The translations under genes and the position numbers were made by a program. Positions 65 to 61,771 of a stretch of 61,771 nucleotides of DNA are shown here, one piece after another. The stretch is from a virus, in the IMG/VR virus record IMGVR_UViG_3300025030_000018, positions 1-61,771 of that record; one strand, 5' to 3'. Position 1 is the first letter of the stretch. Each line of letters begins with the position of its first letter. The notes under the pieces are model-generated. The model saw nothing but the letters and a program-made list of their open reading frames with translations. It was not told the origin of the DNA and made no database searches.

Positions 65-80
65 AGGTTATCAGTTAGTC
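65..80 (-). repeat. Cassette end element B3 (degenerate)
   Basis: AGGTTATCAGTTAGT matches the outer part of elements B1 (3127-3162) and B2 (5601-5642). Here it overlaps the stop codon of the lipoprotein gene. The hairpin seen in B1 and B2 is missing, because coding sequence occupies that place. Confidence 0.5.
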
Positions 81-322
81 TCTCTCTTTTCCTTGCCAGT
101 GTTTTCAGATATTTTTCTCGCAAGTTCAGCGTTTATCTTCTCAGTCTCAGTAACAGGGCCATCGTTGAGAACTTGCAGAAAATAGGTATCTCCAAAATTG
201 TGTTTAAAGAGAAATATCCTCCCCTTACCATCGACTGCTTGAATCTTGTCGTACTTGTCGCCAGTTGAGCACCCGCTTAAAAACAGCAGCAGAACTGTAG
301 CGCCGATCACTATTTTACCCAT
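71..322 (-). CDS. Small lipoprotein (cassette 3 gene)
   Basis: The 83-aa product begins with a lysine, a hydrophobic stretch and the lipobox L-S-G-C at about residues 15-18, so it should be lipidated and held in a membrane facing the periplasm. No catalytic motif is visible. I chose the second ATG because AAAGGAG lies 9 bases before it; the first ATG, 6 bases upstream, is too close. The gene stands alone between the PAPS-reductase-like gene and a terminator. It is preceded by element A3 and followed by element B3, the arrangement also seen around 3163-3456 and 5643-6320. It could act in superinfection exclusion or as a spanin partner; nothing in the sequence decides this. Confidence 0.75.
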   Translation of the reverse strand: MGKIVIGATVLLLFLSGCSTGDKYDKIQAVDGKGRIFLFKHNFGDTYFLQVLNDGPVTETEKINAELARKISENTGKEKRETN

Positions 323-332
323 GATCATTCAC

Positions 333-380
333 TCCTTTAATTTTTCAGGCGTTTTGCCCGATTGTACTTTCTACTCGCTC
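333..380 (-). repeat. Cassette end element A3
   Basis: On the minus strand this reads GAAAGTACAATCGGGC, a short loop, GCCTGA, then an A-rich run and the RBS. The hairpin is tcaggc/gcccga at 345-361 with one G-T pair. It matches A1 and A2 upstream of the two other cassette genes. Confidence 0.65.
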
Positions 381-454
381 CTAGTCATCATGTAACTACC
401 GTAACACATCTCCTACGGGGGTGCAACAACTTTTTGTATCGCGGGTTACTAATT

Positions 455-1348
455 TTAGTGTGCCACTCCGATGAAGTCTAAGACCATGCCCATGCCCAAG
501 TAATCAATGCAGTATTTGTGCAGCTTCGGATGTGTCTCTTTCAACTTTACGAATCTCGGCTCCCTCTCCTGCATACACCCAAACATGCAGAACACACAGC
601 CTGTGCGGTCGTAGCCCATGTCATATATTGACGAATATTTGATCCCGGCCTTCAGGCATCGCCATATATCAGCCTCGGTCCAGATTGATAGTGGGCGGGA
701 CATGAGTTTTTTCTTTTCAAAAACATTGCACCCGGACGCCGCGTAGCTCCGCAGCCTCGCCCTACTGTCCGAGGCCATAACTCCTACGAACGGGACATCC
801 TCAGAGTCTTTGAGATGCTTGGCAAGCGGCTGCTTTTTCATGCAGGTACAGCAGGCTTCGCTGATCTTGAAAGGGGCGTCTACCAAGTAATGGTACTTCT
901 GAGGAATGACTCCTACAGTCTGGATTTTCCCTGTGTTCGGATTAACCCCTCCCCACAGTCTGAGGTTTCTCTGTGCCTCTGACTTGGTGTTTCTGCACCT
1001 GGATATAGCCATAGCTACTTCCTTGCTTATCACAGGGTAGCCGTACTTTTTGATTACTTCTCCGAAGGTCATCTTTGGGCGGAGCCAAATCACGTTCTGG
1101 ATCGTGCGGACAAACGCCAGTACCTCTGGGAACTCAAGCCCTGTGTTGACGAACACCGCCGGGACTTCAGGGTAAAGCTGTCGAACCAAGTACAGTAGAA
1201 TGGTAGAGTCCTTGCCGCCGGAGAAAGAGACATAGACCTTCCCTCCCCAAGCCTCATGCCACTCCCTGATCCTCTCTCGCGCCCATTCGATCTTCCAAAG
1301 GAGGTCCATCTCTTGACGCTGCTTGATCTCACACAGAGATGCGGACAT
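455..1348 (-). CDS. PAPS reductase / DndC-like ATP pyrophosphatase family protein
   Basis: The 297-aa product has the PP-loop SGGKDST at residues 43-49, which binds ATP in the adenine-nucleotide alpha hydrolase family that includes PAPS reductase and DndC. A C-C-x-C cluster mid-protein and a second cluster (GCVFCMFGC) near the C-terminus suggest an iron-sulfur or zinc centre. Family members activate or transfer sulfur. In phages they are found as orphans and have been linked with nucleic-acid modification or host sulfur metabolism. The ATG overlaps the TGA of the upstream helicase gene (ATGA), so the two are translationally coupled. No DndD, DndE or cysteine desulfurase gene is in the genome, so the substrate is unknown. 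Confidence 0.85.
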   Translation of the reverse strand: MSASLCEIKQRQEMDLLWKIEWARERIREWHEAWGGKVYVSFSGGKDSTILLYLVRQLYPEVPAVFVNTGLEFPEVLAFVRTIQNVIWLRPKMTFGEVIKKYGYPVISKEVAMAISRCRNTKSEAQRNLRLWGGVNPNTGKIQTVGVIPQKYHYLVDAPFKISEACCTCMKKQPLAKHLKDSEDVPFVGVMASDSRARLRSYAASGCNVFEKKKLMSRPLSIWTEADIWRCLKAGIKYSSIYDMGYDRTGCVFCMFGCMQEREPRFVKLKETHPKLHKYCIDYLGMGMVLDFIGVAH

Positions 1349-2919
1349 CAATTCTCCTTTGCCAAATCAAGGATAATATCCTGAAGTCTCTTCTTCTCAC
1401 GCAACGCCGCGTACATTCGTTTTTCTTCTGCAGTGGCGTAGATGCAGGCGATGTCGATCTTGGTGTTCTGCTTGCTGCCATCGGTGCGGGCGTTGGCCTG
1501 TTGCACCTTCGCCGCCTTGACATATGGGGCGTACCAGATAGAGAGGGTAGCTGTCGTCAGGTCAAGGCCATGGGCCATGGTGTCTGGGTTGGCGAGGATA
1601 ATCCAAGGGTCGGGGAGAGTCCTGAACTCCCGGAATATTTTATTGCGCTGCGCTGGAGATGTGGCCCCTTCGACGATCGCCACTGACCACTTCTTCCTAA
1701 GCTCGGCAGCCAAGGTGTTGAGCGCCCCCGTGAACGGGACGAACACCAGCACCTTCTCGTTGTTCTCGGAGATCAACTCCTCCAGGATCTTGAGCCTCGG
1801 CCCGAAGTCGAACTTGACCATATTGCTGGAGGCGTCGTAAGCAACCCCACAGGCAATTTGTACCAATTTACTTAATAATACCGCAGCGTTAACCGCTGTG
1901 ATGGTCTGCCCGTTCAGGTCGGTCGAGGCCTGCCTGATCAACTGCTTGTAGGCTTTATCCTGCTCGGCTGAGAGTTCCGCCCGCCGGTCGATGAAACTCG
2001 GTTCCATAGTGCTGCATACCTTCCGCTCGAACCTGATGGCCGGCTTTAATACTCGCGCTACGACCTGCTCATGGCCTGGCTTAGGCAGCCACTTGAACTG
2101 CCGGAGTTGCCACATGGTCTCCTGCTTGAACGCGGTGAAGTGGCCCTTAAAGTTCTCAGGAGTAATCAATTTGCACTGGCCGAAGGCATCAGTAGGCTCG
2201 TTCGGCGTCGGGGTCCCTGTCAGCCCCCATGCGGACCTCGCAATCCCTTGGCGGTTCAGCACTTCGTTCAGTGGGGTCCACAGTACTCCGCCCTTCTTGT
2301 CTTTGGTCCTGCGGTTTTTCGCACTGCGCAGCTCGGCCAGTTCGTCCACGATGACGAGGTTGATGTCCGGCCTGGACTTCAAGGCTTCCTCGATTATGCC
2401 TACCCCATGGTGATTACAAATATAAAAATCGCAAGGCTTGGCGAGAAGGTCGAGGCGCTTTTGCCTCGGGCCGTGCAGGACAGCGAAGGTCCGGAGTGGG
2501 AAACTCTCGAAAATATTCTGCTCCCACACATCCCAGAGAGTGGAAAGCGGAGCGACGATCAGCGTCCTTTTTATCTGGCCGGCGAGGCGGAGGTAGTCCG
2601 CACCCCAGAGGGCACTCAAGGTCTTCCCAGTCCGCATCTCGGATAGGCAGTAGCAGCGGGAGTGAAGAGTAAAAAACTCCGCAGTTTCCACTTGGTACCA
2701 TCTCGGCTTATACCGCCCAGGCCACTCGTACTGCCGTCTGATCGGCGACTCAACCTTGATCCCAAGATTGTTGAGCACCCGAGCACTTTCCAGCGTGTGC
2801 GGCACAGCGACGAACCTCTCGCCTTTGATCGTCGCTTCCTTGATGTCTGGGAAGACGGCGCGGAGTTGGCTCGGGTTATTGTGCTTCAGCACAACGTGAT
2901 TGTCTAGGATGCGGATCAT
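1348..2919 (-). CDS. SNF2/SWI2-type superfamily 2 DNA helicase
   Basis: The 523-aa product has SF2 motifs in order: Walker A variant MRTGKT at about 95-100, motif Ia (IVAPLSTLWDVW), DEAD-like box VDELAEL at 191-197, motif III TGTPTPNEP, and a C-terminal RecA lobe with VFVPF and an ARTDG motif VI. The compact size and absence of extra domains match phage SNF2 helicases, which translocate on dsDNA. It lies just downstream of a 48-aa acidic gene and is coupled to the PAPS-reductase-like gene. Its place among nucleases and the polymerase suggests replication fork remodelling or recombination. Confidence 0.9.
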   Translation of the reverse strand: MIRILDNHVVLKHNNPSQLRAVFPDIKEATIKGERFVAVPHTLESARVLNNLGIKVESPIRRQYEWPGRYKPRWYQVETAEFFTLHSRCYCLSEMRTGKTLSALWGADYLRLAGQIKRTLIVAPLSTLWDVWEQNIFESFPLRTFAVLHGPRQKRLDLLAKPCDFYICNHHGVGIIEEALKSRPDINLVIVDELAELRSAKNRRTKDKKGGVLWTPLNEVLNRQGIARSAWGLTGTPTPNEPTDAFGQCKLITPENFKGHFTAFKQETMWQLRQFKWLPKPGHEQVVARVLKPAIRFERKVCSTMEPSFIDRRAELSAEQDKAYKQLIRQASTDLNGQTITAVNAAVLLSKLVQIACGVAYDASSNMVKFDFGPRLKILEELISENNEKVLVFVPFTGALNTLAAELRKKWSVAIVEGATSPAQRNKIFREFRTLPDPWIILANPDTMAHGLDLTTATLSIWYAPYVKAAKVQQANARTDGSKQNTKIDIACIYATAEEKRMYAALREKKRLQDIILDLAKEN

Positions 2920-3062
2920 TGGCAGCAGCGAACGTACTGGTCGTACATATCTTCGGCGAATCGCTCCGAATCGAAGTCAAGTTCACGGTCTGCTCCGGAC
3001 TCCGCGGCGTAAATATCCAACAACTCTTCATTTTCTTCGTACCACTCTTCGAAATCCTTCAT
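2916..3062 (-). CDS. Small acidic protein, 48 aa
   Basis: The ORF runs from an ATG preceded by GGAGGGAG to a TGA that overlaps the helicase ATG (ATGA). The product is rich in Asp and Glu, has several aromatic residues and ends R-C-C-Q. No family is recognised. The tight coupling to the helicase gene supports it as real. Confidence 0.6.
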   Translation of the reverse strand: MKDFEEWYEENEELLDIYAAESGADRELDFDSERFAEDMYDQYVRCCQ

Positions 3063-3126
3063 ACCTCTCCCTCCCTCCTCAAAAAGTCATACTTCTGAGT
3101 ATGTTTTCGGCCAGGTCTTTAAACGA

Positions 3127-3162
3127 CAGGTTTTCAGTTAGTATCAGGCATGGTGCCTGACA
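3127..3162 (-). repeat. Cassette end element B1
   Basis: Just after the stop codon of 3163-3456 the minus strand reads TCAGGCACCATGCCTGA (7-bp stem, 3-base loop) and then TACTAACTGAAAACC. There is no T-tract on the coding strand, so it is not a normal intrinsic terminator for this gene. It resembles the upstream element A1 in inverted orientation. Confidence 0.65.
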
Positions 3163-3456
3163 TTATTTTTTAAAAATATAGTCGTAATCATCACCGTATA
3201 CCTCGCGCCGTACTTCCTCTAAAACTTCCCCGAACGGCGGCTTCTTTTTAAGAAGTGCCCAATTATGCCCGTATCGCTCGATCATCCTCTTTGAGACTTC
3301 GTCGTCAATACTTTCTTCGCGGCCAGCGGCAGACTCGAACATTTCGTATTCCTGTTCAATGCGAGAGTCCATTTGGAAAAACCTTTCTTTTAGTTCTTCC
3401 ACCGACCTACTGGAGCTAAGTATGTAGCCGATGTGTTCTGTGTCTTTTTTATTCAA
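3163..3456 (-). CDS. Hypothetical protein, 97 aa (cassette 1 gene)
   Basis: The start is a TTG six bases after AAAAAGGAG; a closer ATG is out of frame and stops after two codons. The product is charged and largely helical by its spacing of Leu and Glu, with a basic C-terminus (YIFKK). No known family. The gene is more AT-rich than its neighbours and is bracketed by elements A1 and B1, which suggests acquisition as a unit. Confidence 0.65.
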   Translation of the reverse strand: MNKKDTEHIGYILSSSRSVEELKERFFQMDSRIEQEYEMFESAAGREESIDDEVSKRMIERYGHNWALLKKKPPFGEVLEEVRREVYGDDYDYIFKK

Positions 3457-3464
3457 GTCATGCT

Positions 3465-3506
3465 CCTTTTTCGAGATTGCAAAATCTCGATACTACTTTC
3501 TTATCG
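3465..3506 (-). repeat. Cassette end element A1
   Basis: On the minus strand, right after the stop of the VRR-NUC gene, there is GAAAGTAGTATCGAG, then a perfect 8-bp hairpin (tcgagatt, loop, aatctcga, 3471-3490), then AAAAAGGAG. The order and outer sequence match A2 and A3. The stem sequence itself differs while pairing is kept. Confidence 0.65.
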
Positions 3507-3842
3507 TTCAGCCTTAACCTTCTCCAGCCACTCTTGAAACGCTTTCAGCGTTGCCTCGCCGTCAACGACAAACACCGCGCCTCCCGAGGAGGCGATTGCA
3601 GAAATCTGCAAAGCCTGCAGTCCACTCGGCTTCTTGCCGAGGGCCTTTGCCTCGATAGCAAAGAACATGCCCAGATAGTGCCCGACTACGTCCGGGAGGC
3701 CTCCGATCGACATCGCCCCCTGCACCGCAGGATACCAGTACCCGTCAGCCTTCTCAAACGTGCCGGCCTTGGCCGCGGACAAAATATCATACTCGGCGAG
3801 GAGGGCGTAGATCAGCCGCTTCGTGCCCCCTTCAGGGGTCAT
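3501..3842 (-). CDS. VRR-NUC family nuclease
   Basis: At 113 aa this is a stand-alone VRR-NUC domain, a PD-(D/E)xK-type endonuclease fold. Visible signatures are GGLPDVVG, MFFAIEAKALGKKPSGLQ (the E-x-K core followed by the conserved Q), and a C-terminal GGAVFVV strand. Phage members are structure-selective or junction nucleases. Its ATG overlaps the stop of the next gene upstream (ATGA). It is part of a nuclease-rich run with the DEDD exonuclease and the Cas4-like protein. Confidence 0.85.
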   Translation of the reverse strand: MTPEGGTKRLIYALLAEYDILSAAKAGTFEKADGYWYPAVQGAMSIGGLPDVVGHYLGMFFAIEAKALGKKPSGLQALQISAIASSGGAVFVVDGEATLKAFQEWLEKVKAER

Positions 3843-4057
3843 ACGCCCTCCACCACAGCCATGCCCTTATCTCCTATCTGCAGACACAGTCTGGACATGA
3901 TCTGACCTCCATAGTAGACTAGCCACTTGTCGGTATCAGGCAGGTGATCTTCTGGGGACACCACGACTACGCCACGCTCACCGTTCGGATGGACGATGTA
4001 GTCCCCAACGTAAACGTCGTTGCCGGCGTAGTCAGTCCAAGGGGCTTTTCTTTTCAC
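3839..4057 (-). CDS. Hypothetical protein, 72 aa, SH3/KOW-like
   Basis: The start is GTG, placed after GGAGG, and overlaps the stop of the exonuclease gene (GTGA). The product has a strand-rich core (VYVGDYIVHPNGERGVVVVS) that resembles small SH3-like barrels. No enzymatic motif is visible. Overlaps at both ends show it belongs to the exonuclease-VRR-NUC operon. Confidence 0.65.
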   Translation of the reverse strand: MKRKAPWTDYAGNDVYVGDYIVHPNGERGVVVVSPEDHLPDTDKWLVYYGGQIMSRLCLQIGDKGMAVVEGV

Positions 4058-4566
4058 TTCACCACCTCCATCAAGTAAACCGCCTGAGACTTGGCATCGT
4101 CGAGTGCGTTGTGTGCCGTGCCTTGGTACGACCGGTCGATCTTAGGATACATGGCTCTCACCGTGCGGAAACACCTGTCGTTCCTGAACGACCAAGGAGC
4201 AGTCAGGCCCAGGCGGTCGTAAGCCGAGCGGAGGATAACGTTATCAAAGGCTACGCCGTTGCCCCAGACTGGCACATCCTCGCCGGCGGACTGCACCCAC
4301 GCCTTGAACAAGCGAAGTACGAAGTCAATGTCCTTCCCCGGCCTCTTAAACGCCGCCCGGGCCTCATCGCTCTGCTGCATCCACCAGAGGATAGTCGAGG
4401 CGTCAACGGTGCCGCCGGCCTTCATTGCCGAGTCGAGGTCAACGACCTCATAAAACTCCCGGCCGATGGTCTTGGTGTCGAGGGAGAACTCGACCCCTCC
4501 TATGGCTATTATGGCTGCGTCTGGGCGGTTGCCCATTGTTTCTAAATCTGTCATGATGTCGGTCAC
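4054..4566 (-). CDS. DEDD-superfamily 3'-5' exonuclease (Rv2179c-like)
   Basis: The 170-aa product has the exonuclease motifs DLETMG (Asp7, Glu9), NGVAFDN in the middle and HNALDDAKSQA near the C-terminus, giving the D-E-D-(H)D metal-binding set. The layout fits the Rv2179c-like group common in phages, which trims 3' ends of nucleic acid. I chose GTG at 4566 because GAGGAGG lies about six bases upstream; the internal ATG at 4554 is too far from it. It overlaps the downstream gene. Confidence 0.85.
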   Translation of the reverse strand: MTDIMTDLETMGNRPDAAIIAIGGVEFSLDTKTIGREFYEVVDLDSAMKAGGTVDASTILWWMQQSDEARAAFKRPGKDIDFVLRLFKAWVQSAGEDVPVWGNGVAFDNVILRSAYDRLGLTAPWSFRNDRCFRTVRAMYPKIDRSYQGTAHNALDDAKSQAVYLMEVVK

Positions 4567-4579
4567 TTACTTCCTCCTC

Positions 4580-4723
4580 TCAATAGTCGTAAAAATCGTA
4601 GTCAGGCTCCCCCGCCCAGTCGTCATCGGCGAAGTAGTCTTCGTCCTCATCGATGACCTTGTACGCCGGGTCCTCGGCGTTATCGTATTTTTCTTGAGCG
4701 CGGTCGAAGCGTTGTTGGTTCAT
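4580..4723 (-). CDS. Very acidic small protein, 47 aa
   Basis: ATG preceded by GGAGGC; ends at TGA just before the exonuclease gene. The C-terminal half is almost entirely Asp, Glu and Tyr with a few small residues. The composition resembles DNA-mimic inhibitors such as Ocr or ArdA, but no homology can be claimed. It may equally be a small acidic chaperone-like peptide. Confidence 0.55.
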   Translation of the reverse strand: MNQQRFDRAQEKYDNAEDPAYKVIDEDEDYFADDDWAGEPDYDFYDY

Positions 4724-4737
4724 TTGGGGGGCCTCCT

Positions 4738-4899
4738 TTATTCATCGTTTTGGCAGTGGCAGCGGTCGCTGATAGCCCCGCAGTAGACGCAAATGCCCTC
4801 AGTCGTTTTCTCAATGAACTCCATCCGGTCCTCATCGTTCTGGAAAGACTTCAGAAGTTCGTTGATCTGTTCGGCTTGTTTTATAATCAGTAGGTTCAT
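4738..4899 (-). CDS. Small zinc-binding protein, 53 aa
   Basis: The ATG overlaps the TGA of the Cas4-like gene (ATGA), so translation is probably coupled. The N-terminus is helical and the C-terminus has C-x2-C and C-x-C pairs (CVYCG, CHC), a likely single zinc site. Role unknown. Confidence 0.6.
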   Translation of the reverse strand: MNLLIIKQAEQINELLKSFQNDEDRMEFIEKTTEGICVYCGAISDRCHCQNDE

Positions 4900-5588
4900 C
4901 TCCTTCCCCCTTTGCCACAATGGGCACATGAAGCAACTTCGCACCAGCCTCGGCACAAGCCGCTGGGTTTCGGGTCAAATCGCTCAGTCCGCCATGCGGA
5001 CTTCATCCTCTCCACCCATCCGAGGATCTCCTCCCACATCGCTGGGATATCTTCTTTCGAGAAGACGCCGTCTTTCGGAGTCACCGCGTCGTGCTTCAGC
5101 CAGATGTACTTGGTAACGAAGGTCTCGATCTCTGGGTGCTTGAGCGCCAAGAAGCAGGCGTTGATCTTGAGCTGGAGGGAGTCCTCACGGATGCCACCAG
5201 TTTTCCAATCTAAGCATGTGATCTTGTTATCTTTTTTCAGACTAACATCAATTTTACACCTGCCGTAAGCCGTCTTGTCGAACCACTTTACGAACTTCAT
5301 GTTCTCGTCGATCGCCAGTTCCTGCTCGGCGAAGAGGGTGCCTCCGGATGACTCAAGAATCCTGCAATACTTCTCGCCGCGGGTGTAGCCTGCCGGCAGC
5401 GGGGTCTTCTTGAGAAGCCGGTCCTCGAGATGCTTGTGCTCGATTGTCCCCTGCTTCATGGCCTCGATCTCCCGGTACGGGATCGTGACATAGAACCGCT
5501 TGGCTGCATAACTTAGTGGGCACGTAATGTAGTCAGCGATAGCTGATGGAGACCAGGAGAAGTTCTTGCCTACGGCGTTTTTTAGCAT
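4896..5588 (-). CDS. Cas4/RecB-like PD-(D/E)xK nuclease
   Basis: The 230-aa product carries the RecB-nuclease core: H-x-H near residues 51-53, CKIDV (Asp114), LDWKTG (Asp127, Lys129) and Gln139. It also has Cys23 near the N-terminus and Cys212, 216, 221 and 224 at the C-terminus, the spread arrangement that holds a 4Fe-4S cluster in Cas4 and AddB-type nucleases. No CRISPR array or cas genes are present, so a replication or recombination exonuclease role is more likely than spacer acquisition. The 3' end overlaps the 53-aa zinc protein gene. Confidence 0.85.
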   Translation of the reverse strand: MLKNAVGKNFSWSPSAIADYITCPLSYAAKRFYVTIPYREIEAMKQGTIEHKHLEDRLLKKTPLPAGYTRGEKYCRILESSGGTLFAEQELAIDENMKFVKWFDKTAYGRCKIDVSLKKDNKITCLDWKTGGIREDSLQLKINACFLALKHPEIETFVTKYIWLKHDAVTPKDGVFSKEDIPAMWEEILGWVERMKSAWRTERFDPKPSGLCRGWCEVASCAHCGKGGRR

Positions 5589-5600
5589 TTGGGGTCCTTG

Positions 5601-5642
5601 GTTTGTTATCAGTTACAATCGGGCATGATGCCTGACATATTT
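5601..5642 (-). repeat. Cassette end element B2
   Basis: Follows the stop codon of 5643-6320. The minus strand shows hairpin TCAGGCATCATGCCCGA (7 bp with one G-T pair) then TTGTAACTGATAAC. It is the counterpart of B1 and, read in reverse, shares TTACAATCGGGC with the A3 sequence GTACAATCGGGC. Confidence 0.65.
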
Positions 5643-6320
5643 TTAACCGTGGTAATCGACGGTGACACAGATCCAGTCTTCTTTGGGCGTCACCTTTTCG
5701 GCATACTCTTTTCTGTAGTTTTTAAGTTTGCCCGCCCACTCTGACACCGCCGACAGAACCTTTTTGTCCCATGTGGTATCAACATGATTGACGCCATTCC
5801 ACATTGAGTCAGACAGCATAAACTTTGCCTCCATCTTCTTGTCATCGTAATCAAGCCCAGCTATGATAACCCTTGAACATGTCAGATTTTCCGGGATTTC
5901 ATCAACTCGGCAGATGTCACAAGAAAGGAGGTCGTTGCTATCGTATTGATTATTTGAATGGGCGAACAGCGGACATGCCACAATCTCACCATTTTCAGTG
6001 GGGAAGAACTCGTTCCAGATGTTGTCAACTAGGGGGATTTGACTTTTCGGCTCAAGCGACTGCTTGCCAGCCTGAATCCCTGATACCGTCACCTTGTTTT
6101 CTTGCAGCTTCACATAAAACTTCTCTAACGATTCCGCGTTATATGTGCATTTTTCCTTCGTTCCGGCCCACCTCCCACCAATAACAAACCAATCCCAAAA
6201 CGAGTGACCTGAGTGGTCTTCGCTTTCCTCGTTATTCTCACTAAACGGCAGCATGATCTCTTCAATTGACTTGCTGATATCTTTGGTTTTGGGCATGATA
6301 ATTTCGCAATGATAGTGCAT
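5643..6320 (-). CDS. Hypothetical protein, 225 aa (cassette 2 gene)
   Basis: ATG at 6320 is placed nine bases after AAAAAGGAG. The sequence is rich in Trp (FWDWFVIGGRWAG near residue 40-50, then WNEFF, WNGV, WDKK) and resembles uncharacterised phage and bacterial proteins that share a F-x-D-W-F-x-x-G-G-R-W motif. The central part has two Cys in SCDICR. No catalytic function is evident. It is AT-rich compared with the flanking nuclease and is bounded by elements A2 and B2. Confidence 0.7.
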   Translation of the reverse strand: MHYHCEIIMPKTKDISKSIEEIMLPFSENNEESEDHSGHSFWDWFVIGGRWAGTKEKCTYNAESLEKFYVKLQENKVTVSGIQAGKQSLEPKSQIPLVDNIWNEFFPTENGEIVACPLFAHSNNQYDSNDLLSCDICRVDEIPENLTCSRVIIAGLDYDDKKMEAKFMLSDSMWNGVNHVDTTWDKKVLSAVSEWAGKLKNYRKEYAEKVTPKEDWICVTVDYHG

Positions 6321-6329
6321 GTTTTTCGC

Positions 6330-6376
6330 TCCTTTTTGTTCGGGCGTCATTGCCCGATACTACTTTCCTATCGCTC
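6330..6376 (-). repeat. Cassette end element A2
   Basis: The minus strand reads GATAGGAAAGTAGTATCGGGC, a six-base loop, GCCCGA, then ACAAAAAGGAG. The hairpin stem is 6 bp (6340-6357). It begins right at the stop of the upstream 52-aa gene. Confidence 0.65.
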
Positions 6377-8037: not shown

Positions 8038-10236
8038 TCATTTCTCACATTCTCCATAAGAGACAGCGTACCCTCCCGACGACTTCAGCGGGAGGTCGGG
8101 GCACCAGGAAGGTGCGGTTGCCATTTCTACCTTCATCATCTGTAAGCACTCGTCGGCGTACCTCTCAGGCACGACCGTGATTAGTTCGTCGTGGGTGCTA
8201 GACACGATCTCCGCGACCTCGCCGGGGCGCAGGGAGTACTCCCGCAGCCGGGGGATAACCTTCAACGCTTGGTCGGAGATGACCAGTCGGGACAAAGCCT
8301 GGGTGCCATTTTCCGCGCATTTACCAGCATATAGCTTAGTCCACTCTTTCTTTCTTACGTTCGCCAGATACTTATAGTCGCCACTGTCAGACTTCCGGAG
8401 CTTGCTATAGCGGATCTTCATGCCGTTTGGCAGGACGTATCCTTCCTTGTCCGTATGCACCAGCGGCCTGCCGCCCACCCCGCGCTCTTGGCCGAGGAGG
8501 ATGTCAGTAAGGGACGCCTGGCAGTCCTTCCATAATGCCGTCACTCTGTTGTTCGAGGATCGGAACGAGTCCACCAGAAACTTCGTCACGGCGCAGTGCG
8601 TCAAGTGATCGTCCAAGGCTACATTCAGCGGGCAGCAGGCTTCGGCCTCTTCGTAGGCGTAGGTGAACCCCTTCTTATAGGACTTCTGATACCTGAACGC
8701 CTCGACATCGACGCCCAGTTGCTTGACGTAGGTCTGGTCGAAGATGATACCCTCCATCCCCATGAACCCGACCCGGACGCTCTCCTGCAACTTCCAGGCC
8801 CCCATCTGATAGCCGCATCCGAGAATGATAATCTTTCCTACCTGCCCCGCCGTCTTGTGCTCGGGGTTTGTCTTCCGACTGATCGGGTAGCCGTAAACTT
8901 TCGTCGCCATGAAGTCGTAAGGGTCGCCGCCGGCACGGAACATTTCAAGCATATCCTCTTGACCGGCCCAGTAGCAGAGCATCCGCGCCTCGATCTGGCT
9001 CAGGTCGCGCACAACCACAACATGCCCCGGAGGGGCGCAGAGCGACATCCGCAAGGCCCCGGCAGTAGGGTCTCGGTCGTCTACCCGGTTCAGGTTCTGG
9101 GCGTTCTGCTTATCCCCGCCGCTCCATCTATTTGTGTGGGCACCGTAGTAGTTCAGGTACACCGGGAACTTCCCTCGCTTGCCGATCTTATAGAACCGTT
9201 TGGTCCGGGTCTCCTTGATCGTGGACTTCACCCCGAGCCTGGCCTCGACCACTGCCTGGACCTGCGGGTCCGGGTGATCCTGAAGCATTTTGAACTCCTC
9301 GTCCGACTTGCCAAAGGCATAGGCCCAAGGGTAAACTTTCCCCTCGGCTTTCAACTCGGCAGCGCGAGCCTTGTAGTCACCCTGCGTCATGCCCGCCGCC
9401 TTGGCGTCTTTCCAAGGGATCATCTTGAACGACGGCAGTATCCCGCTCGGCGGATCGCCCACGTTGTCCGGGTCCACCCTGCCGTCTTTTATTTTGGCCG
9501 GGCTTAATTTCTTATGCGGGTCTACGCCCATAGTGAGCAGCAGGGCGGCAAACTTGTCGCCGGAGGAGAGCACGGTCTTGTCGGACACGCACTGCCTGAT
9601 CAGCGCCCGTTTGCGCCTCCGCTCCTGCTTATACGCCTCGACAAGCGGGGCCTGGTCCACGACGAACACCGGCTCAGTAAACCGCCGGATAGTCCAGTCG
9701 ATCAACCGCAACTCCGACACCGGGAAGTGGCCCTTGAGCGCATCGAAGATGTCAGCGGTCAGCTCTACGTCGTTGCAGCAGTACCCACCCATGATCTCCT
9801 GCTCTGCATCTGTCAGGTGCCATTTGCCTGCGAAGTGGACAAGCTCGGTGCCTTTCTCCCCTACACCGAGGAGTTTTGCGACGTTGGCGAGGCTGGAGGA
9901 CTCGTGCGGGAAGATCGCTCTTGCCATAGACAGAGTGCATCCCCAGAACGCTGGGCGGATGCCGCAGCGCCAAGTAAGGATTGCCCCGTCAAAATGACTG
10001 TGATGTGCGATGACAAAGGAGTCGTGCCACGGATGGGTTCGTAGGAAATGCACGAGGTCGTCCGGTTTGTAGATGTAAAACGCTTTGTCGCGGTCGATCT
10101 TCACTCCCAGGCCGTGGGCTTTGAATAGCTTGTGCCTCACATATTCTTCGCTGGTCATCCGGGAGAGGGTGATATTTTCCTGTGTTATCGGGTGCTTGCC
10201 GTATGCCGACTCCCAGTCAAGTACTGTTCGGATCAT
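8038..10236 (-). CDS. Family A DNA polymerase with 3'-5' exonuclease
   Basis: The 732-aa product is the replicative polymerase. N-terminal proofreading motifs are DWE (Asp7, Glu9), HHSHFDGA and YCCNDVELT. The polymerase domain shows motif A DLSQIEARM (Asp411), motif B in KTAGQVGKIIILGCGYQMG, and motif C HDE (682-684). There is no 5'-3' exonuclease domain, as usual for phage enzymes of this class. Between motif A and motif B the palm and fingers contain a YDFMATKVYG segment typical of the family. The ATG overlaps the stop of a 52-aa gene (ATGA). Confidence 0.95.
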   Translation of the reverse strand: MIRTVLDWESAYGKHPITQENITLSRMTSEEYVRHKLFKAHGLGVKIDRDKAFYIYKPDDLVHFLRTHPWHDSFVIAHHSHFDGAILTWRCGIRPAFWGCTLSMARAIFPHESSSLANVAKLLGVGEKGTELVHFAGKWHLTDAEQEIMGGYCCNDVELTADIFDALKGHFPVSELRLIDWTIRRFTEPVFVVDQAPLVEAYKQERRRKRALIRQCVSDKTVLSSGDKFAALLLTMGVDPHKKLSPAKIKDGRVDPDNVGDPPSGILPSFKMIPWKDAKAAGMTQGDYKARAAELKAEGKVYPWAYAFGKSDEEFKMLQDHPDPQVQAVVEARLGVKSTIKETRTKRFYKIGKRGKFPVYLNYYGAHTNRWSGGDKQNAQNLNRVDDRDPTAGALRMSLCAPPGHVVVVRDLSQIEARMLCYWAGQEDMLEMFRAGGDPYDFMATKVYGYPISRKTNPEHKTAGQVGKIIILGCGYQMGAWKLQESVRVGFMGMEGIIFDQTYVKQLGVDVEAFRYQKSYKKGFTYAYEEAEACCPLNVALDDHLTHCAVTKFLVDSFRSSNNRVTALWKDCQASLTDILLGQERGVGGRPLVHTDKEGYVLPNGMKIRYSKLRKSDSGDYKYLANVRKKEWTKLYAGKCAENGTQALSRLVISDQALKVIPRLREYSLRPGEVAEIVSSTHDELITVVPERYADECLQMMKVEMATAPSWCPDLPLKSSGGYAVSYGECEK

Positions 10237-12168: not shown

Positions 12169-12413
12169 AAGTCCGCTCCGTAAAGAATTGGTGAGTGGTG
12201 CCCCTCGAACATTACCGAGAGGGCGTAGTCGTCGTAGGGGGCTTGGTGACTGTCCGCTGAAGCGGCGTCTTTCTGCCCGAACTTGAACGCTTGGGCCTCA
12301 TCTTCAGCCTCGACGTGGGCCACGTAAACGTCCTGGCCGTGTGGAGAGTTCTCGCACAGGTAGTCCGGACGGAGTAAAACGACGGTGTATTTTTTCCTTA
12401 AGTTATTACTCAT
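12165..12413 (-). CDS. Hypothetical protein, 82 aa
   Basis: Starts with a strand YTVVLLRPDYL and continues VYVAHVEAEDEAQAF, the arrangement of a small phage-encoded alpha/beta protein family with no known function. ATGA overlaps on both sides tie it to the Cys-repeat gene and the fused gene. Confidence 0.6.
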   Translation of the reverse strand: MSNNLRKKYTVVLLRPDYLCENSPHGQDVYVAHVEAEDEAQAFKFGQKDAASADSHQAPYDDYALSVMFEGHHSPILYGADL

Positions 12414-12961
12414 GCGGTTTCTTCAGCCTCCATTCTCATAATGGTTTTAATGGTCTCGATATACTGTCGGTACTGTTTGCCGTGGTCGGTGCCGTTGTGA
12501 TTTTTCTCAACTGCCGCCTCGAACGCTGCGAGGTCGCCTTTAAAGCAGCCACAAACGACTTGGACAGTTTCCCCCAGCCAGTAGGTCGTAGTCTGGGCGT
12601 TGCGCGATCCGATCTTTTTGCCGGTGTACCTGTTCGGGTTCTCCTTGAAGTCGGAGCAGTCGGAGCAGTCGGAGCAGTCGGAGCAGTCGGAGCAGCTGGA
12701 GCAGTCGGAGCAGTCGGAGCAGCCGGAGCAGTCGGAGCAGTAGCGGCAGTCGGAGCAGTCGGAGCAGCCGGAGCAGCCGGAGCAGCCGGAGCAGTAGCGG
12801 CAGTAGCGGCAGCCGGAGCAGTCGGAGCAGTAGCGGCAGCCGGAGCAGTCGGAGCAGTTGGTTAAGGTCTTTGAAAAGTTCTCGGCCTGGGCCTCGGTGT
12901 AAATGTCAGCGTCCCAGCGATTATTATTGTCGTCGTAGTACCCTCCGTTTTTTAAGATCAT
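12410..12961 (-). CDS. Cys-triplet repeat protein, 183 aa
   Basis: After a 34-residue N-terminal part, 23 consecutive triplets start with Cys (Cys-Ser-Asp, Cys-Ser-Gly, Cys-Arg-Tyr, one Cys-Ser-Ser). The C-terminal 80 residues are a separate conserved-looking domain (KIGSRNAQTTTYW, VVCGCFKGDLAAFE, HGKQYRQYIETI) that I know from other phage proteins with similar Cys repeats. A three-residue period with Cys at each turn would suit a narrow beta-helix with stacked Cys, able to bind metals. The cytoplasm is reducing, so stacked disulfides are unlikely. Function is unknown. Confidence 0.75.
   Translation of the reverse strand: MILKNGGYYDDNNNRWDADIYTEAQAENFSKTLTNCSDCSGCRYCSDCSGCRYCRYCSGCSGCSGCSDCSDCRYCSDCSGCSDCSDCSSCSDCSDCSDCSDCSDFKENPNRYTGKKIGSRNAQTTTYWLGETVQVVCGCFKGDLAAFEAAVEKNHNGTDHGKQYRQYIETIKTIMRMEAEETA
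12652..12858 (-). repeat. 9-bp tandem repeat array encoding Cys triplets
   Basis: Tandem 9-bp units (plus-strand form cggagcagt with variants at two positions) run for about 207 bp. The variation falls mostly on the two non-Cys codons, so the Cys codon is held constant. Slippage and unequal exchange would change copy number in steps of three residues without breaking the frame. Confidence 0.85.
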
Positions 12962-14855: not shown

Positions 14856-14884
14856 TTTATACAGCCACGCCCAAAAAGTGTCAA
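14856..14884 (-). promoter_or_regulatory. Sigma-70 promoter of the regulator pair, with operator in the spacer
   Basis: On the minus strand TTGACA (14884-14879), 17 bases, TATAAA (14861-14856). The spacer contains TTTTTGGGCGT, a copy of the motif repeated across the adjacent region. The first downstream gene is the 114-aa regulator at 14476-14820. Binding of a regulator here would block RNA polymerase. Confidence 0.8.
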
Positions 14885-14984
14885 GGAAAATGTCTGTGCT
14901 TGTGACATTCTAGTTAACAATTTTATTTTTGCTGTGATTCCAATAGGATGCATTTTTCGGGCGTGTTTTGTCAGAGGGGGCGTG

Positions 14985-14998
14985 TCCGAGATAGGGCG
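14985..14998 (+). repeat. TCCGAGATAGGGCG site, left-most copy
   Basis: Same 14-bp sequence as at 15897-15910. Related copies (CGACTTAGGGCG core) lie at 15131-15142 (reverse), 15204-15215, 15493-15505 (reverse), 15525-15535 (reverse, one change), 15723-15734, 15757-15770 and 15823-15834. The core TAGGGC is near constant and the two bases before TA vary in step (CT or GA). Confidence 0.7.
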
Positions 14999-15124
14999 GT
15001 TTTTCGGCGTTTACGCCCAAAAAATGCTCCGATCAAAAAAATCGTGCACCAAAATGTGCTTGAAATTATTAGGAAAGTGGATTTTTTTGTTAAAAAAATA
15101 AAAAGAAGAAAGAGAGATTTTAAT

Positions 15125-15221
15125 ATTTTACGCCCTAAGTCGTTACACCTGGAGAGTAGGTGTGTTGTTAGGCAGAGGGGTGGGAGGCCAAAAAGAGGTG
15201 TAACGACTTAGGGCGTAAAAT
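15125..15221. repeat. Perfect 26-bp inverted repeat with 45-base spacer
   Basis: The arms are 15125-15150 and 15196-15221. Each arm contains one CGACTTAGGGCG site and a GTAAC next to it. The spacer is G-rich on the plus strand. The structure could extrude as a cruciform or fold as a long RNA hairpin. No transposase gene lies nearby. Confidence 0.85.
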
Positions 15222-15536
15222 TTCAAAAATGATGATGTTTTTTTTTTTTTTTTAACAAACCAAAAAAATTATTATTACTTACTTACTTATAAAATATATA
15301 ATAATAATAAGGCTTTTGCGCTGGACACCAGCAAAAAACTTTGTGAAAAAAATTTTGGGCATTTGTAACTTTCATACACCAAAAACGCCGTTTTTCGCCC
15401 CAACTCGTTACAAAAAAATGTAGCAAATGTCCGCGTCCTATAACAAATTGTTACGCAAATGTCCGCCCTGTTACGCCCAAAAAATGCGAAATGCCCTATC
15501 TCGGAACAAAAAAAGCTGAAAATGTCCTATCTCGAC

Positions 15537-15610
15537 ACGCCCAAAACTCGCGCTAACGCCCAAAACCTGCCCGAAGCACGCCCAAAAACTACCCAAAACA
15601 CGCCCAAAAA
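15537..15610 (+). repeat. Iteron-like ACGCCCAAAA array
   Basis: Four copies start at 15537, 15556, 15578 and 15600 (spacings 19, 22 and 22). Single copies lie at 14867, 15013 and 15473, and a partial one at 15657. All have the same orientation. Confidence 0.75.
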
Positions 15611-15896
15611 GTGCGCAAAACTAGAGCGGTTTGCCCGACAGTTTTCAAGGGCAGCACACGCCCATTTTCGGCTTTTTTGGCCTGTTTGTGAAAAACTTTT
15701 TAACAAAGACATTTTTGGTGCTCGACTTAGGGCGGTTTTTACCTCCCATTTCAGTGTCCGACTTAGGGCGCTTTGTTAACTCAGATGTAACAAATGTTAC
15801 TCTCGGTTAACGTTTTTACGCTCGACTTAGGGCATTTTCCCGCCCTCTAAGCGTAACGCCTTGTTACGCCAAGTTAACAAAAAGCCCCATCCCGTG

Positions 15897-15910
15897 TCCG
15901 AGATAGGGCG
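15897..15910 (+). repeat. TCCGAGATAGGGCG site, right-most copy
   Basis: Exact match to the site at 14985-14998, so the same sequence bounds the repeat-rich region at both ends in the same orientation. Confidence 0.7.
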
Positions 15911-15936
15911 GTTTTCGTGTAACAAATCGGACGGTT

Positions 15937-16116
15937 TTACGTCCAGAACGACCTTCCGCAACTCGTACATTGGTGCTCGTGTAAGTAGGTGGGCTTGTCG
16001 TCTGGATCGTCTTCTGACTCCGCTTTCCATAATACGAGGTGCAGGCGGATCTCTGTATTTTTGCAAAACGGGCAGCCTGTGATGTCTTTGATTGTGTGCT
16101 TGAAGTTTTTTGGCAT
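15937..16116 (-). CDS. Zinc-ribbon protein, 59 aa
   Basis: Cys15-x2-Cys18 and Cys50-x2-Cys53 form a complete zinc-ribbon, with an acidic linker between. It is the last gene of the block that reads leftward into the repeat-rich region. Such small ribbons often bind nucleic acid or other proteins. Confidence 0.65.
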   Translation of the reverse strand: MPKNFKHTIKDITGCPFCKNTEIRLHLVLWKAESEDDPDDKPTYLHEHQCTSCGRSFWT

Positions 16117-44917: not shown

Positions 44918-46393
44918 ATGGCTGATCTTGCGAGATATAAGCGCCCTGACGAAGTTTACAGCATTTACGCCCCTGGCACCCCGACTGTGGCGGCGCAGGA
45001 CAAGATGACTACCGCTGTTGTTGCGCCTATAAGGCGGGCAGTAGATGACGCTGTCACTATGACAGGGGGTAAACTTGTGCAGCGAGGGATAAACGCTTTG
45101 GCTGCTACCTCGGCTGCTAACGATGCGGCGGTAAATAGGTACAACCTCCAGTCTGGTATTGTCGACCGACGTAACGAACTTATGCGGGAATCGACTCTTC
45201 CGGGAGGGGTGCTTCCGCCTCAACCAGTGGTGGCAGCCGATCCTCCTGTTCCGGCGGGTCTGCAGCGTGACGGCATCCAGAGTGCTGGATGGCAGCCTGC
45301 CGCATCGCCTGTCGCTTCACAGAACGACCTCGCAATAAAAGACAGCATCGCCAAGATCGACGCAGCCATCGCTGGGGGGATGCGGCCGTCGGCCGAGCAG
45401 GCCCAGCGCATCGCTGCCATTAAGCAGCAGGCAGGCTTCTTACGCGGCAGTCCGTCAGGGCCTACCGGGACGCGGTCGGTGCCGCTGCAGGCCCGGACAG
45501 GAGGCATCCGCCGAGTAGGTAACATGGACGTTCAGTTCGCCCCGGGCACCGACGCCGCAGCGCAATCTAGGTTCCTTGAAAATCCAGTTCGACCAACTGC
45601 GCAGATCAATCGGTTCAACGCCAGTCGAGGGCTTGACGCCGGCCAAGGTATCCGCGCCGCGCAGAATGCAGACAGGATACTTGATCGCCCCCCGCAGGGA
45701 GGCCCAGGCCCTACGCTCCTTACCAGAGAAAACTCTCCCGGGATGGGGTGGAAGCAACGCAGCAAGCTCAACGAGCAGCTTCTCGCTAACGAGCAGTCCG
45801 GGCAGAACGCCAGATTGCAGTCAGAAACTTCGTTTGGCACCGCCGGTATCCAGGCCGACACTTCGCGACTCGGGTTCCGTAACCAGCGGGAGATCGCCGG
45901 TATCCAGGCCGACACTTCGCGACTCGGGTTCCGTAACCAGCGGGAGATCGCCGCAGCCGGCGACGCAGTACAGATGGACAGGAACAAGATTCTCGCCTCC
46001 GAGGCTGAGTCGCAGAATGCCTATCGCGGGGTGCAGGCTGCAGAACTCCCCAAGGAGAACGCCTCGCAGCAGGCAGAACGATCAGCGCGAGCGGAGCAAG
46101 CGGCAGCGACCACGGCCGGGATTCGACAGGCTACGGAGCAAGGGAAACTGATGAAGTTCTCCAGAGAAGTTCCGAACTCAGTCGATCCGAAGTTTGGGGT
46201 GCCAATGAAGCAAGAAGGGTTCTACAACCCGTTGACGGAGAAAACGATTATTCCCGGAGAACTTGGGATGCGGAGCGCAGCACCTGCAGTACCACAAGAC
46301 GCCTCGCAGCTAGTGGTAGGTCAGACGTACACTGCCGCAAACGGCAGTCAGGTTATATGGGACGGTAAAGGCTTTAAGAGGATATCCAACTAA
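44918..46393 (+). CDS. Internal virion protein, 491 aa
   Basis: Helical, rich in Ala, Gln and Arg, with disordered Pro/Gly stretches. Two identical 18-residue blocks (AGIQADTSRLGFRNQREI) follow each other at about residues 309-344. The C-terminal 60 residues form a small domain (LVVGQTYTAANGSQVIWDGKGFKRI). It is directly upstream of the giant virion protein, and similar Gln/Ala-rich proteins are ejected with the DNA in podoviruses. Confidence 0.65.
   Translation: MADLARYKRPDEVYSIYAPGTPTVAAQDKMTTAVVAPIRRAVDDAVTMTGGKLVQRGINALAATSAANDAAVNRYNLQSGIVDRRNELMRESTLPGGVLPPQPVVAADPPVPAGLQRDGIQSAGWQPAASPVASQNDLAIKDSIAKIDAAIAGGMRPSAEQAQRIAAIKQQAGFLRGSPSGPTGTRSVPLQARTGGIRRVGNMDVQFAPGTDAAAQSRFLENPVRPTAQINRFNASRGLDAGQGIRAAQNADRILDRPPQGGPGPTLLTRENSPGMGWKQRSKLNEQLLANEQSGQNARLQSETSFGTAGIQADTSRLGFRNQREIAGIQADTSRLGFRNQREIAAAGDAVQMDRNKILASEAESQNAYRGVQAAELPKENASQQAERSARAEQAAATTAGIRQATEQGKLMKFSREVPNSVDPKFGVPMKQEGFYNPLTEKTIIPGELGMRSAAPAVPQDASQLVVGQTYTAANGSQVIWDGKGFKRISN
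45842..45949 (+). repeat. Perfect 54-bp tandem duplication
   Basis: 45842-45895 is repeated exactly at 45896-45949, adding 18 residues in frame. Perfect identity means the duplication is recent or still exchanging. Confidence 0.9.
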
Positions 46394-59332: not shown

Positions 59333-59611
59333 TTATTTTGCCGACATTTCTCTAATAATGCTACCGAGAACTTGTACCCTCTGGTCTTTTTTCAGGCGAT
59401 CGGTGAGCGGCAGGCGCTGGTGCTGGACGGCTTTATTCAACCGCATCGCTGTGTTATACGCCAAATTGAGGCGCAGCTCGTCCTTCACTTCCCCGCCGTT
59501 TCGCCACCTGTAGATCGTAACCCTGCTGATACTTGTCAGGGTAGAGAAGTCGGTGACTGAGACTTCCGAGGTATTGAGAGCGTCCAGGATGTATTTTACT
59601 TTTGTGTTCAT
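59333..59611 (-). CDS. HTH regulator, 92 aa
   Basis: ATG at 59611 after CGGAG. HTH at about residues 12-38 (ALNTSEVSVTDFSTLTSISRVTIYRWRNGG). The rest is helical and basic. It precedes the primase-helicase gene and may control it. The gap before that gene holds a small imperfect dyad (aagtag/ctactt). Confidence 0.7.
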   Translation of the reverse strand: MNTKVKYILDALNTSEVSVTDFSTLTSISRVTIYRWRNGGEVKDELRLNLAYNTAMRLNKAVQHQRLPLTDRLKKDQRVQVLGSIIREMSAK

Positions 59612-59623
59612 GGTTTCTCCGAG

Positions 59624-59650
59624 AGAAAAGCCCCTCCGTTGGAGGGGCTT
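59624..59650 (-). terminator. Intrinsic terminator, leftward
   Basis: Ten-base stem aagcccctcc/ggaggggctt with a three-base loop followed on the minus strand by TTTTCTCTC. It lies between the histone-like gene and the HTH gene and should strongly lower readthrough into the replication operon. Confidence 0.8.
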
Positions 59651-59670
59651 GAGGTTCACCTAACTGCTAC

Positions 59671-59838
59671 TTACGCTTTGACTGACTTCGCCCGCCACTC
59701 CTTGAGGAGTGCTGTCAGTTCGAGACTGGCTTTGCGGGACCGGGTGCCTGCGGCCTTGTTGCCCTTCTCGCAGAACTTCGCGGCCTCTTGCTTGAACTCT
59801 TCAAACTTCGACTCGATTGTAACCAGGTCAGCTATCAT
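59671..59838 (-). CDS. Histone H1-like (Hc1-type) protein, 55 aa
   Basis: ATG after GGAGG. The sequence FEEFKQEAAKFCEKGNKAAGT, then RSRKASLELTALLKEWRAKSVKA, matches the N-terminal domain of the bacterial Hc1 histone-like family (K-G-N-K-A-A-x-x-R-x-R-x-x-S). It lacks the Lys/Ala-rich tail of the chlamydial protein. It could coat phage DNA or act with the neighbouring ssDNA-binding-like protein. Confidence 0.75.
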   Translation of the reverse strand: MIADLVTIESKFEEFKQEAAKFCEKGNKAAGTRSRKASLELTALLKEWRAKSVKA

Positions 59839-59850
59839 CAGATCACCTCC

Positions 59851-60900
59851 TTAAATAAGACCAAGCTCGGCGCGGAGCAGGTCGTCGGAAACATCCCCGC
59901 TTGATGCCGGAGCACTCGCTGCCGCAGCAGCGGCCTTCTCAGCAGCTTCTTTCGCGGCCTTGGCCTCGGCGTCAGCTCTTGCCTTGGCGGCTTTCTTCGC
60001 GGCTGCAGCGTCGGCTTTCGTCTTGGCATCGGCAGCAGCTTTCGCCTCTGCTTCGGCCTTGGCAGCTAACTCCTCGGGAGAGGGGCCGGCAGGAGCCTCG
60101 ATGGCCTTCTTCTCAGCAGGAGTCGGCAGGGCCAGGGGCGCGCCGTTGTTGCCAATGATTGCCTCGGCTTCAGTCGACATGGCCTTCTGGGCCAGCAACT
60201 CGACGATCTTTTGCTGTTGCTCAGGCTTGTCCGCGCCGACGAAGCCGCCGAACCGGAAGACCAGGACGGAGAAGTCAGACTGGGCATCGAAGCCGATCAG
60301 GGTCTTGATGGCGTAGAGCGGTACGTCCGGTAGGTTGACCCGGACTTGGTCCAGGTACAGCCGGTAGTTCTTCAAGGATGCCGGCGGGATCTTCAGTTGG
60401 TAGACGGCACCTGCAGCGTAGACCGCTAGGATCTTGTTGTCGGTACAGGCCTTGCCCTTGGAGGCGGTGCCGTTCTGGTCCTTACCACTGCCGAAGGCGT
60501 TCATCGGGCAGGCGGCGCAGGTCTCGCACTGGGGCGAGGAGGACGACGGATCTGGGCGCAGGGCGTCAAGGCTGAAACAGTCCGGGGCCTTCACTTCCTC
60601 GTTGTTCGGGTTGTAGGCCTCCAGATACCAGACTTTGGAGAAGGCGCGTTTGGCCCGGAGGATGATGGCCGGCATGTAGAAGCCGTCATCAGAGGCAAAC
60701 ATCTGGCTCGGTGGGAAGGCAGTCTCCTCACCGTTGCTGTCCACCAGCTTGAACTGCTTGGCACTCAGCTTGATTCTCGGGGGCATCCCGGCGCCGATGC
60801 CGGCAGCCGCCTCGTCCATGAAGTTCGCTGCAAGCTGCTTGTTCAGCAAGAAAGCAGGGATTGAGTTTTTGTCGGGGATCATCAGGTTATTGTCGCTCAT
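59851..60900 (-). CDS. Single-strand DNA-binding-like protein, 349 aa
   Basis: The N-terminal 230 residues are strand-rich with a Cys cluster (CETCAACPMNAFGSGK, GKACTDNK) that is typical of a phage family annotated as ssDNA-binding-like. Then comes a long Ala/Lys/Glu-rich linker (about residues 265-330) and an acidic tip (SGDVSDDLLRAELGL), as in SSB proteins that recruit partners. It is close to primase and histone-like genes. The assignment is by pattern. Confidence 0.65.
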   Translation of the reverse strand: MSDNNLMIPDKNSIPAFLLNKQLAANFMDEAAAGIGAGMPPRIKLSAKQFKLVDSNGEETAFPPSQMFASDDGFYMPAIILRAKRAFSKVWYLEAYNPNNEEVKAPDCFSLDALRPDPSSSSPQCETCAACPMNAFGSGKDQNGTASKGKACTDNKILAVYAAGAVYQLKIPPASLKNYRLYLDQVRVNLPDVPLYAIKTLIGFDAQSDFSVLVFRFGGFVGADKPEQQQKIVELLAQKAMSTEAEAIIGNNGAPLALPTPAEKKAIEAPAGPSPEELAAKAEAEAKAAADAKTKADAAAAKKAAKARADAEAKAAKEAAEKAAAAAASAPASSGDVSDDLLRAELGLI

Positions 60901-61644: not shown

Positions 61645-61771
61645 CTAAAAGCCGGTCTCTCCCGGCTTGTCACGCCTGTTTTACACCGGCGTCCGTGTGC
61701 CCCCCGGCAGGTTATCAGTTAGTCTCTCTCTTTTCCTTGCCAGTGTTTTCAGATATTTTTCTCGCAAGTTC
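61645..61771. repeat. 127-bp terminal direct repeat (circular join), copy 2
   Basis: Exact copy of bases 1-127. It contains the 3' part of the lipoprotein gene that is complete at 71-322, without that gene's start. Confidence 0.9.

Follow-up and report, generated by a model that had tools for sequence, protein, structure and literature searches.

Why are three single genes of one phage each framed by the same kinds of hairpin element? The window analysed here is the whole of IMG/VR record IMGVR_UViG_3300025030_000018, a complete-looking phage record of 61,771 bases. Its first 127 nt are repeated directly at its end (1–127 = 61645–61771), so that the record is circularly closed or permuted. 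The three genes (71–328, 3163–3456 and 5643–6320) all belong to the non-structural arm and are encoded on the minus strand, each with an element called A before it and an element called B after it. The locus gave no DNA match to sequenced phages. A preliminary description had located all the A and B pieces correctly, on the minus strand, and had proposed either a mobile cassette format or a shared RNA control unit. The cassette half gained ground here: the same format was found in other phages, the contents differ in a close relative, and in one phage the sequence switches at the core of A. The exchangeable cassette is well supported by these observations, and we favour the view that A and B are the borders of single-gene cassettes exchanged by recombination at their cores, probably site-specifically.

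Element A consists of the sequence GAAAGTA, two free bases, ATC, a hairpin that begins at that ATC, a run of A and the ribosome-binding site (RBS). The motif GAAAGTAnnATC has three exact matches in the window (360–371, 3489–3500 and 6356–6367), against 0.08 expected, and none of 100 dinucleotide shuffles reached three. A1 (330–377, minus) reads CGAGTA-GAAAGTA-CA-ATC, with its core at 365–371 and the hairpin TCGGGC-AAAAC-GCCTGA at 345–361, followed by an A-rich stretch and the RBS. A2 (3462–3506, minus) reads CGATAA-GAAAGTA-GT-ATC (core 3494–3500), with the hairpin TCGAGATTTTGCAATCTCGA at 3471–3490 and an RBS, and A3 (6327–6373, minus) reads CGATAG-GAAAGTA-GT-ATC (core 6361–6367), with the hairpin TCGGGC-AATGAC-GCCCGA at 6340–6357 and an RBS. 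A2 and A3 share a leftward extension, GARCGATAR. The elements had been described as beginning at the stop codons of neighbouring genes. This holds for A2, whose core directly follows the stop TAA of the open reading frame (ORF) 3501–3842, and less closely for A3, whose core lies 7 bases past a stop, but A1 abuts no stop codon.

Compared with shuffled sequences, the hairpins of A1, A2 and A3 are all stable as RNA (z −2.3 to −3.0). Their stems were hand-aligned in a set of six A elements picked for hairpin look, taken from the window and from two further phages introduced below (G001 and L122). In this set 97% of cells pair and three of the six pairs are changed on both sides; the pairing signal is lost when the partner is slid by one to three columns. 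The earlier remark that stem sequence varies while pairing is kept is thereby borne out. For a set chosen in this way the covariation suggests, rather than proves, a maintained stem, and some function seems to lie behind the conserved structure, be it at the level of DNA or of RNA. A role of A as a sigma-70 promoter was considered, since TAnnAT resembles a −10 box, and dropped because no consistent −35 lies upstream and a transcript would begin inside the stem. A promoter-like match (ATGACT-16-TACAAT, 9 of 12) overlaps A1, and none was found over A2 or A3.

Element B combines the hairpin TCAGGC...GCCYGA with a downstream TAACTGA, from which it is separated by two or three free bases. The pattern TCAGGCAnCATGCCYGATnnTAACTGA occurs twice in the window (3134–3160 and 5609–5635), and never in shuffles even with 3 mismatches. 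In B2 (3129–3160, minus) the hairpin TCAGGC-ACCAT-GCCTGA (3144–3160) is followed by TAC and then TAACTGAAAACC, with the core TAACTGA at 3134–3140. In B3 (5604–5635, minus) the hairpin TCAGGC-ATCAT-GCCCGA (5619–5635) is followed by TAACTGATAACA, with the core at 5609–5615. B1 (66–77, minus) has the outer part only, TAACTGATAACC, whose TGA is the stop of gene 1, in agreement with the preliminary description. The RNA hairpin of B2 is stable (z −4.0) and that of B3 weakly so (z −1.2); both score as terminator-like on the opposite strand only. B read in reverse had been said to share a core with A, and indeed A1 (339–366) and B3 (5614–5641) form a 28-nt inverted pair with 82% identity.

The enclosed genes have a G+C content of 42.2, 43.2 and 45.4%, versus 51–59% in seven other genes of the phage, so that all three are AT-rich, where at least two had looked so at first. 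None matched an annotated family. Gene 1 (71–328, minus) encodes 85 aa with an N-terminus that by eye resembles a lipoprotein signal, and has no family match at all; the right end of its cassette falls inside the 127-nt terminal repeat. Gene 2 (3163–3456, minus) starts with TTG and encodes 97 aa with a weak match to an uncharacterised PHROG (E 0.008). Gene 3 (5643–6320, minus) encodes 225 aa and belongs to a conserved family without known function. Homologues of its product were found in two phage contigs that lack A and B elements (L161, 100–780, 74%; L162, 4998–5663, 58%). The same genes without the elements in related phages had been named in advance as evidence against the proposal. What these homologues indicate is that gene and format are separable; they do not disprove that the format is real.

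Contents of the three places were compared with those in a close relative, L122 (contig 3300024999_000243), which is 86% identical in nucleotides and has a helicase 96% identical in amino acids. The neighbours of all three cassettes are kept in L122 and the cassettes themselves are absent. At place 1, a tRNA-His (9885–9959, anticodon GTG) occupies the exact position of cassette 1, and an apparent promoter and terminator (judged by eye), common to both phages, flank the variable content. Place 2 holds other genes. At place 3 the A element has diverged (GAAACTAGTATAGGGC-TTTT-GCCCG) and the gene that follows it is a different one. Homology between the two phages breaks off close to where A starts or a few bases inside it, and at places 1 and 3 it picks up again soon past B. 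Related phages had been suggested for comparison, and between these two the contents of the places are exchanged. Also absent from L122 is a PP-loop / PAPS-reductase-like gene (window 455–1351, minus; PADLOC matches BrxP and SspD). It was rejected as a fourth cassette, having no A or B at its borders, and represents a second route of gene gain at a spot neighbouring the cassettes.

Pattern scans, and a search with a recombinase described below, showed that the A/B format recurs in phages with little or no DNA in common with the window phage: G001/G002 (3300030429_000047 and 3300027283_000017, identical over 11.3 kb), G008 (3300024999_000312), G009 (IMGVR_UViG_3300024999_000091), G010/G011 (3300025009_000152 / 3300025010_000323) and G012. 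Judged from contig names, L122, G008 and G009 have one metagenome number in common. Tandem arrays were found in G001, G008 and G009. G001/G002 carry two arrays, in which A precedes six genes and TAACTGA follows about seven; the sequence of one tandem junction, GATACTAACTGACGCACAGTCGAAAGTAGTATC, forms an inverted repeat, though an imperfect one, and three copies of TAACTGACGCACAGTCGAAAGTA are present. Tandem cassettes in the same orientation are separated by a 9-nt spacer, CGCACAGTC, that occurs three times. Further A/B elements are present in G008, G009, G010/G011 and G012, some with a far shorter A hairpin and the RBS CGATGGAGC, and one B element of G009 (CATGCCCGATAGTAACTGA) nearly equals the B of cassette 3. 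Among the accessory genes seen in this format are those for a Lar-like anti-restriction protein, for PP-loop/SspD-like proteins and for small proteins of unknown kind. Four to eight copies of TAACTGA are expected per phage, so that this motif is too short to be evidence by itself, and it was counted only at gene ends in line with A or another B.

Several searches were less productive. Nearly all matches to GAAAGTAnnATC...AAAGGAG in viral contigs were due to chance, and only L031, L070 and L087, with hairpin, RBS and flank, were accepted. A B-hairpin scan returned a single sequence in two contigs, judged chance. When some 85,000 genomes of bacteria and archaea were scanned for the specific hairpin, three matches came up, chance by eye and without an array, though looser variants may occur. 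The tandem junction had no meaningful DNA match in a similarity search.

The most direct indication of recombination came from G009. An identical segment of 8,399 bases is present there twice, in opposite orientations, and an A element adjoins each of its ends. The contig shows three junctions: flank1|X, flank2|X and flank2|Y. To the left of GAAAGTA, flank1 and flank2 share 0 bases; X and Y share exactly seven bases, GAAAGTA, and the eighth differs. Measured from the first base of GAAAGTA, the contig extends exactly 127 nt into X before it stops, as would be expected if an assembly graph with k = 127 branched at the core. In the remaining 51 kb of G009, GAAAGTAnnATC is absent. The simplest reading of these joints is a population in which the segment inverts by a crossover inside GAAAGTA. 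Active site-specific recombination at the A core is thus likely, as judged from this one assembly. Cassette X was also found in G008 behind another flank, and there again homology begins at the core. For B, G010 and G011 are identical over 15,654 bases and diverge exactly at TAACTGA.

Two other features of these contigs were noted. Unit Y (L217 8392–8863 = G009 59392–59863, minus) contains small genes; ahead of its TAACTGA lies a structured stretch resembling a tRNA, in which ARAGORN found none. The last 300 bases of L220 (G010), up to the contig end, form an array of a repeat of about 27 nt (GATTACAGCAAACTCGCAGCTTCAGGC-like) with few variants.

A tyrosine recombinase of a 284-aa type is encoded by G001, G008, G012 and G013. 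Its catalytic residues are present and it is closest to archaeal XerA; the best family for the G001 protein is NF040815 XerA (120 bits versus a cut-off of 220). In G001 and G008 an array starts some 10–30 nt past the stop codon of this gene, where an A core is found. G001 and G013 also encode longer integrases. The link between the 284-aa recombinase and the cassettes is suggestive, on the strength of this proximity.

Could the elements simply be signals in RNA? Under this explanation, which we hold to be unlikely though it is the strongest competitor, A would be a 5′-leader hairpin with RBS, B a 3′ hairpin bounding the message, and both would be control elements that serve only passively, as short homologies in ordinary phage recombination, on the pattern of the start-associated and PeSL elements described below. 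The position of A directly before the RBS, the covarying stem, tetraloops of RNA type in places (TTCG, GCAA) and the better folding of A than of shuffles all agree with it, and this half of the original proposal is compatible with a cassette role: A may do both jobs. Elements with inverted repeats that are associated with gene starts are known from phages. The start-associated and extended start-associated sequences (SAS/ESAS) of cluster K mycobacteriophages, partly with inverted repeats, precede a subset of non-structural genes, have no partner element behind the gene, and follow particular gene families in their conservation instead of marking an exchange of genes (PMC3203893). Like them, A is a repeated element with an inverted repeat just before the gene start, and by analogy it may act in translation; unlike them, it has a different sequence (the SAS 13-mer GGGATAGGAGCCC was matched at 7–8 of 13 positions, versus 7.6 at random), has a partner B behind the gene, and together with B would mark gene exchange.

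PeSL of T4-type phages, small repeated stem-loop regulatory elements likewise found where accessory genes shuffle, were reportedly described by Arbiol et al. in 2010 as strong promoters plus terminators that recombine by homology. In contrast to these, no consistent promoter was seen with A, and the stretch shared at the switch is seven bases. For RNA control with passive homology, the switch in G009 within so few bases is a difficulty, seven being very short for homologous recombination; in addition, some cassettes are nearly without an A hairpin, and the likeness of reversed B to A is left unexplained. No Rfam 15 family scored above its gathering threshold in the window or in contig L155, and only a tRNA did in L122; a hammerhead or other described RNA was rejected for want of an Rfam match.

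The inverted termini with subterminal hairpins, and the lack of a transposase inside, also call to mind non-autonomous transposons, whose imperfect terminal inverted repeats would be A and B and which would be moved by a host transposase in trans (DDE, or Y1 of the IS200/IS605 kind). Target duplications are not obvious by eye, and movement would need an enzyme in trans. We consider such transposons improbable. Tandem cassettes in one orientation with the spacer occurring three times, and the 8-kb inversion between two A cores, look more like conservative site-specific recombination; a Y1 HUH transposase (PF01797) was found neither in the window phage nor in five others (records G000, G001, G003, G008, G009 and G010), and no transposon with these ends was found, although no search by ends alone was made.

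Integrons are known in phages (Qi et al. 2023, PMC9892861), and the resemblance to their cassettes is considerable: promoterless-looking, AT-rich single genes with recombination-like sites stand in tandem in one orientation, and two of the phages have a tyrosine recombinase gene immediately next to them. That these are ordinary integron cassettes carried by phages (attC sites without integrase, CALINs) is nevertheless very improbable, and was largely refuted by a comparison of the sites. An attC site, RYYYAAC...GTTRRRY with foldable arms, would be expected at the 3′ end of the gene; of 20 cassette ends, one has the motif in sense and one has it in antisense (0.08 in shuffles), and several B elements show the order GTTAG...TAAC, the reverse of attC. 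The switch in G009 lies within GAAAGTA and not at G|TTRRRY, where integrons cross over on a folded single strand. The G001 recombinase scores 51.9 bits against IntI (TIGR02249; cut-off 265) and is XerA-like, and the window phage has no tyrosine recombinase. Further differences from integrons are the cores GAAAGTA and TAACTGA, the two borders instead of one attC, and an array lying behind the recombinase gene in the same orientation.

Plasmid dif (pdif) modules of Acinetobacter carry adaptive genes between short inverted recombination sites (PMC6449649). Shared with them are short inverted bordering sites (A1/B3, in layout only), several modules in a row and, presumably, an enzyme in trans; the A/B units differ in holding single genes, in having a hairpin and RBS built into one border, and in being found here in phages. 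Similarity to the 28-bp XerC/XerD site of dif/pdif was 11–15 of 28 at best, versus 12.9 at random. By analogy, the A/B units appear to work most like dif modules, with their inverted borders and an enzyme acting in trans, and like integron cassettes, with single genes in tandem. We class them with mobile gene cassettes, outside the integron, dif/pdif and SAS families.

Several observations weigh against exchange at the A and B cores. An exactly empty site was not found, and the PP-loop gene was gained or lost without A/B elements. The inversion in G009 comes from one metagenome assembly, which may be chimeric, and the contig lacks the fourth junction, flank1|Y. At the TAACTGA break, no more than five bases are visible in G010, and another contig-end mismatch of this kind lies away from any element, so that this break is weak evidence. 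To the left of GAAAGTA the lineages have no conserved bases in common, which is unusual for a two-armed tyrosine-recombinase site. G013 has the 284-aa-type recombinase without cassettes, and no tyrosine or serine recombinase (PF00589, PF00239) was detectable in the window phage, the L122 contig or G009. In the window phage the enzyme would therefore act in trans; for it and for G009, a host enzyme is equally possible.

With these points in mind, exchange of cassettes at the cores could proceed as follows. A would be the left border, with its 7-bp core, nnATC and a hairpin in the 5′ leader, immediately ahead of the RBS; B, which in reverse looks like a partner of A, would be the right border, with its hairpin, GATnn and the core TAACTGA as the second crossover point. 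A recombinase would make the crossovers, supplied in trans for phages like the window phage, and the 284-aa XerA-like protein beside the arrays of G001 and G008 would belong to the responsible family. Cassettes would be gained, lost, stacked in tandem or swapped through recombination at the cores, probably site-specifically. Since a new gene brings its own RBS and lands between genes, it would be readable from the resident transcript.

Elsewhere in the window, a non-coding-looking block of short repeats (ACGCCCAAAA..., TAGGGCGGTTTT) with a 69-nt inverted repeat (14860–15940) is perhaps a replication origin or packaging region. A nine-base tandem repeat in more than 20 copies (12595–12897) lies within ORF 12410–12961, a protein of unknown PHROG families, and a 54-base perfect tandem duplication (45841–45948) within ORF 44918–46393.

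Gain and loss of single accessory genes in phages is usually ascribed to illegitimate or chance homologous recombination. A portable cassette format across unrelated phages would give this process a mechanism testable at one sequence, and A and B would serve as a sequence handle for finding accessory genes. More tentatively, the phages of this community might run a cassette system of their own, independent of integrons and Xer/dif, in which some phages would encode a short XerA-like tyrosine recombinase for others to use in trans; the enzyme would act on a new hairpin site with the 7-bp core GAAAGTA and gather single accessory genes into ready-to-translate arrays. Phages may thus own a gene-swapping system that resembles bacterial integrons but uses different sites.

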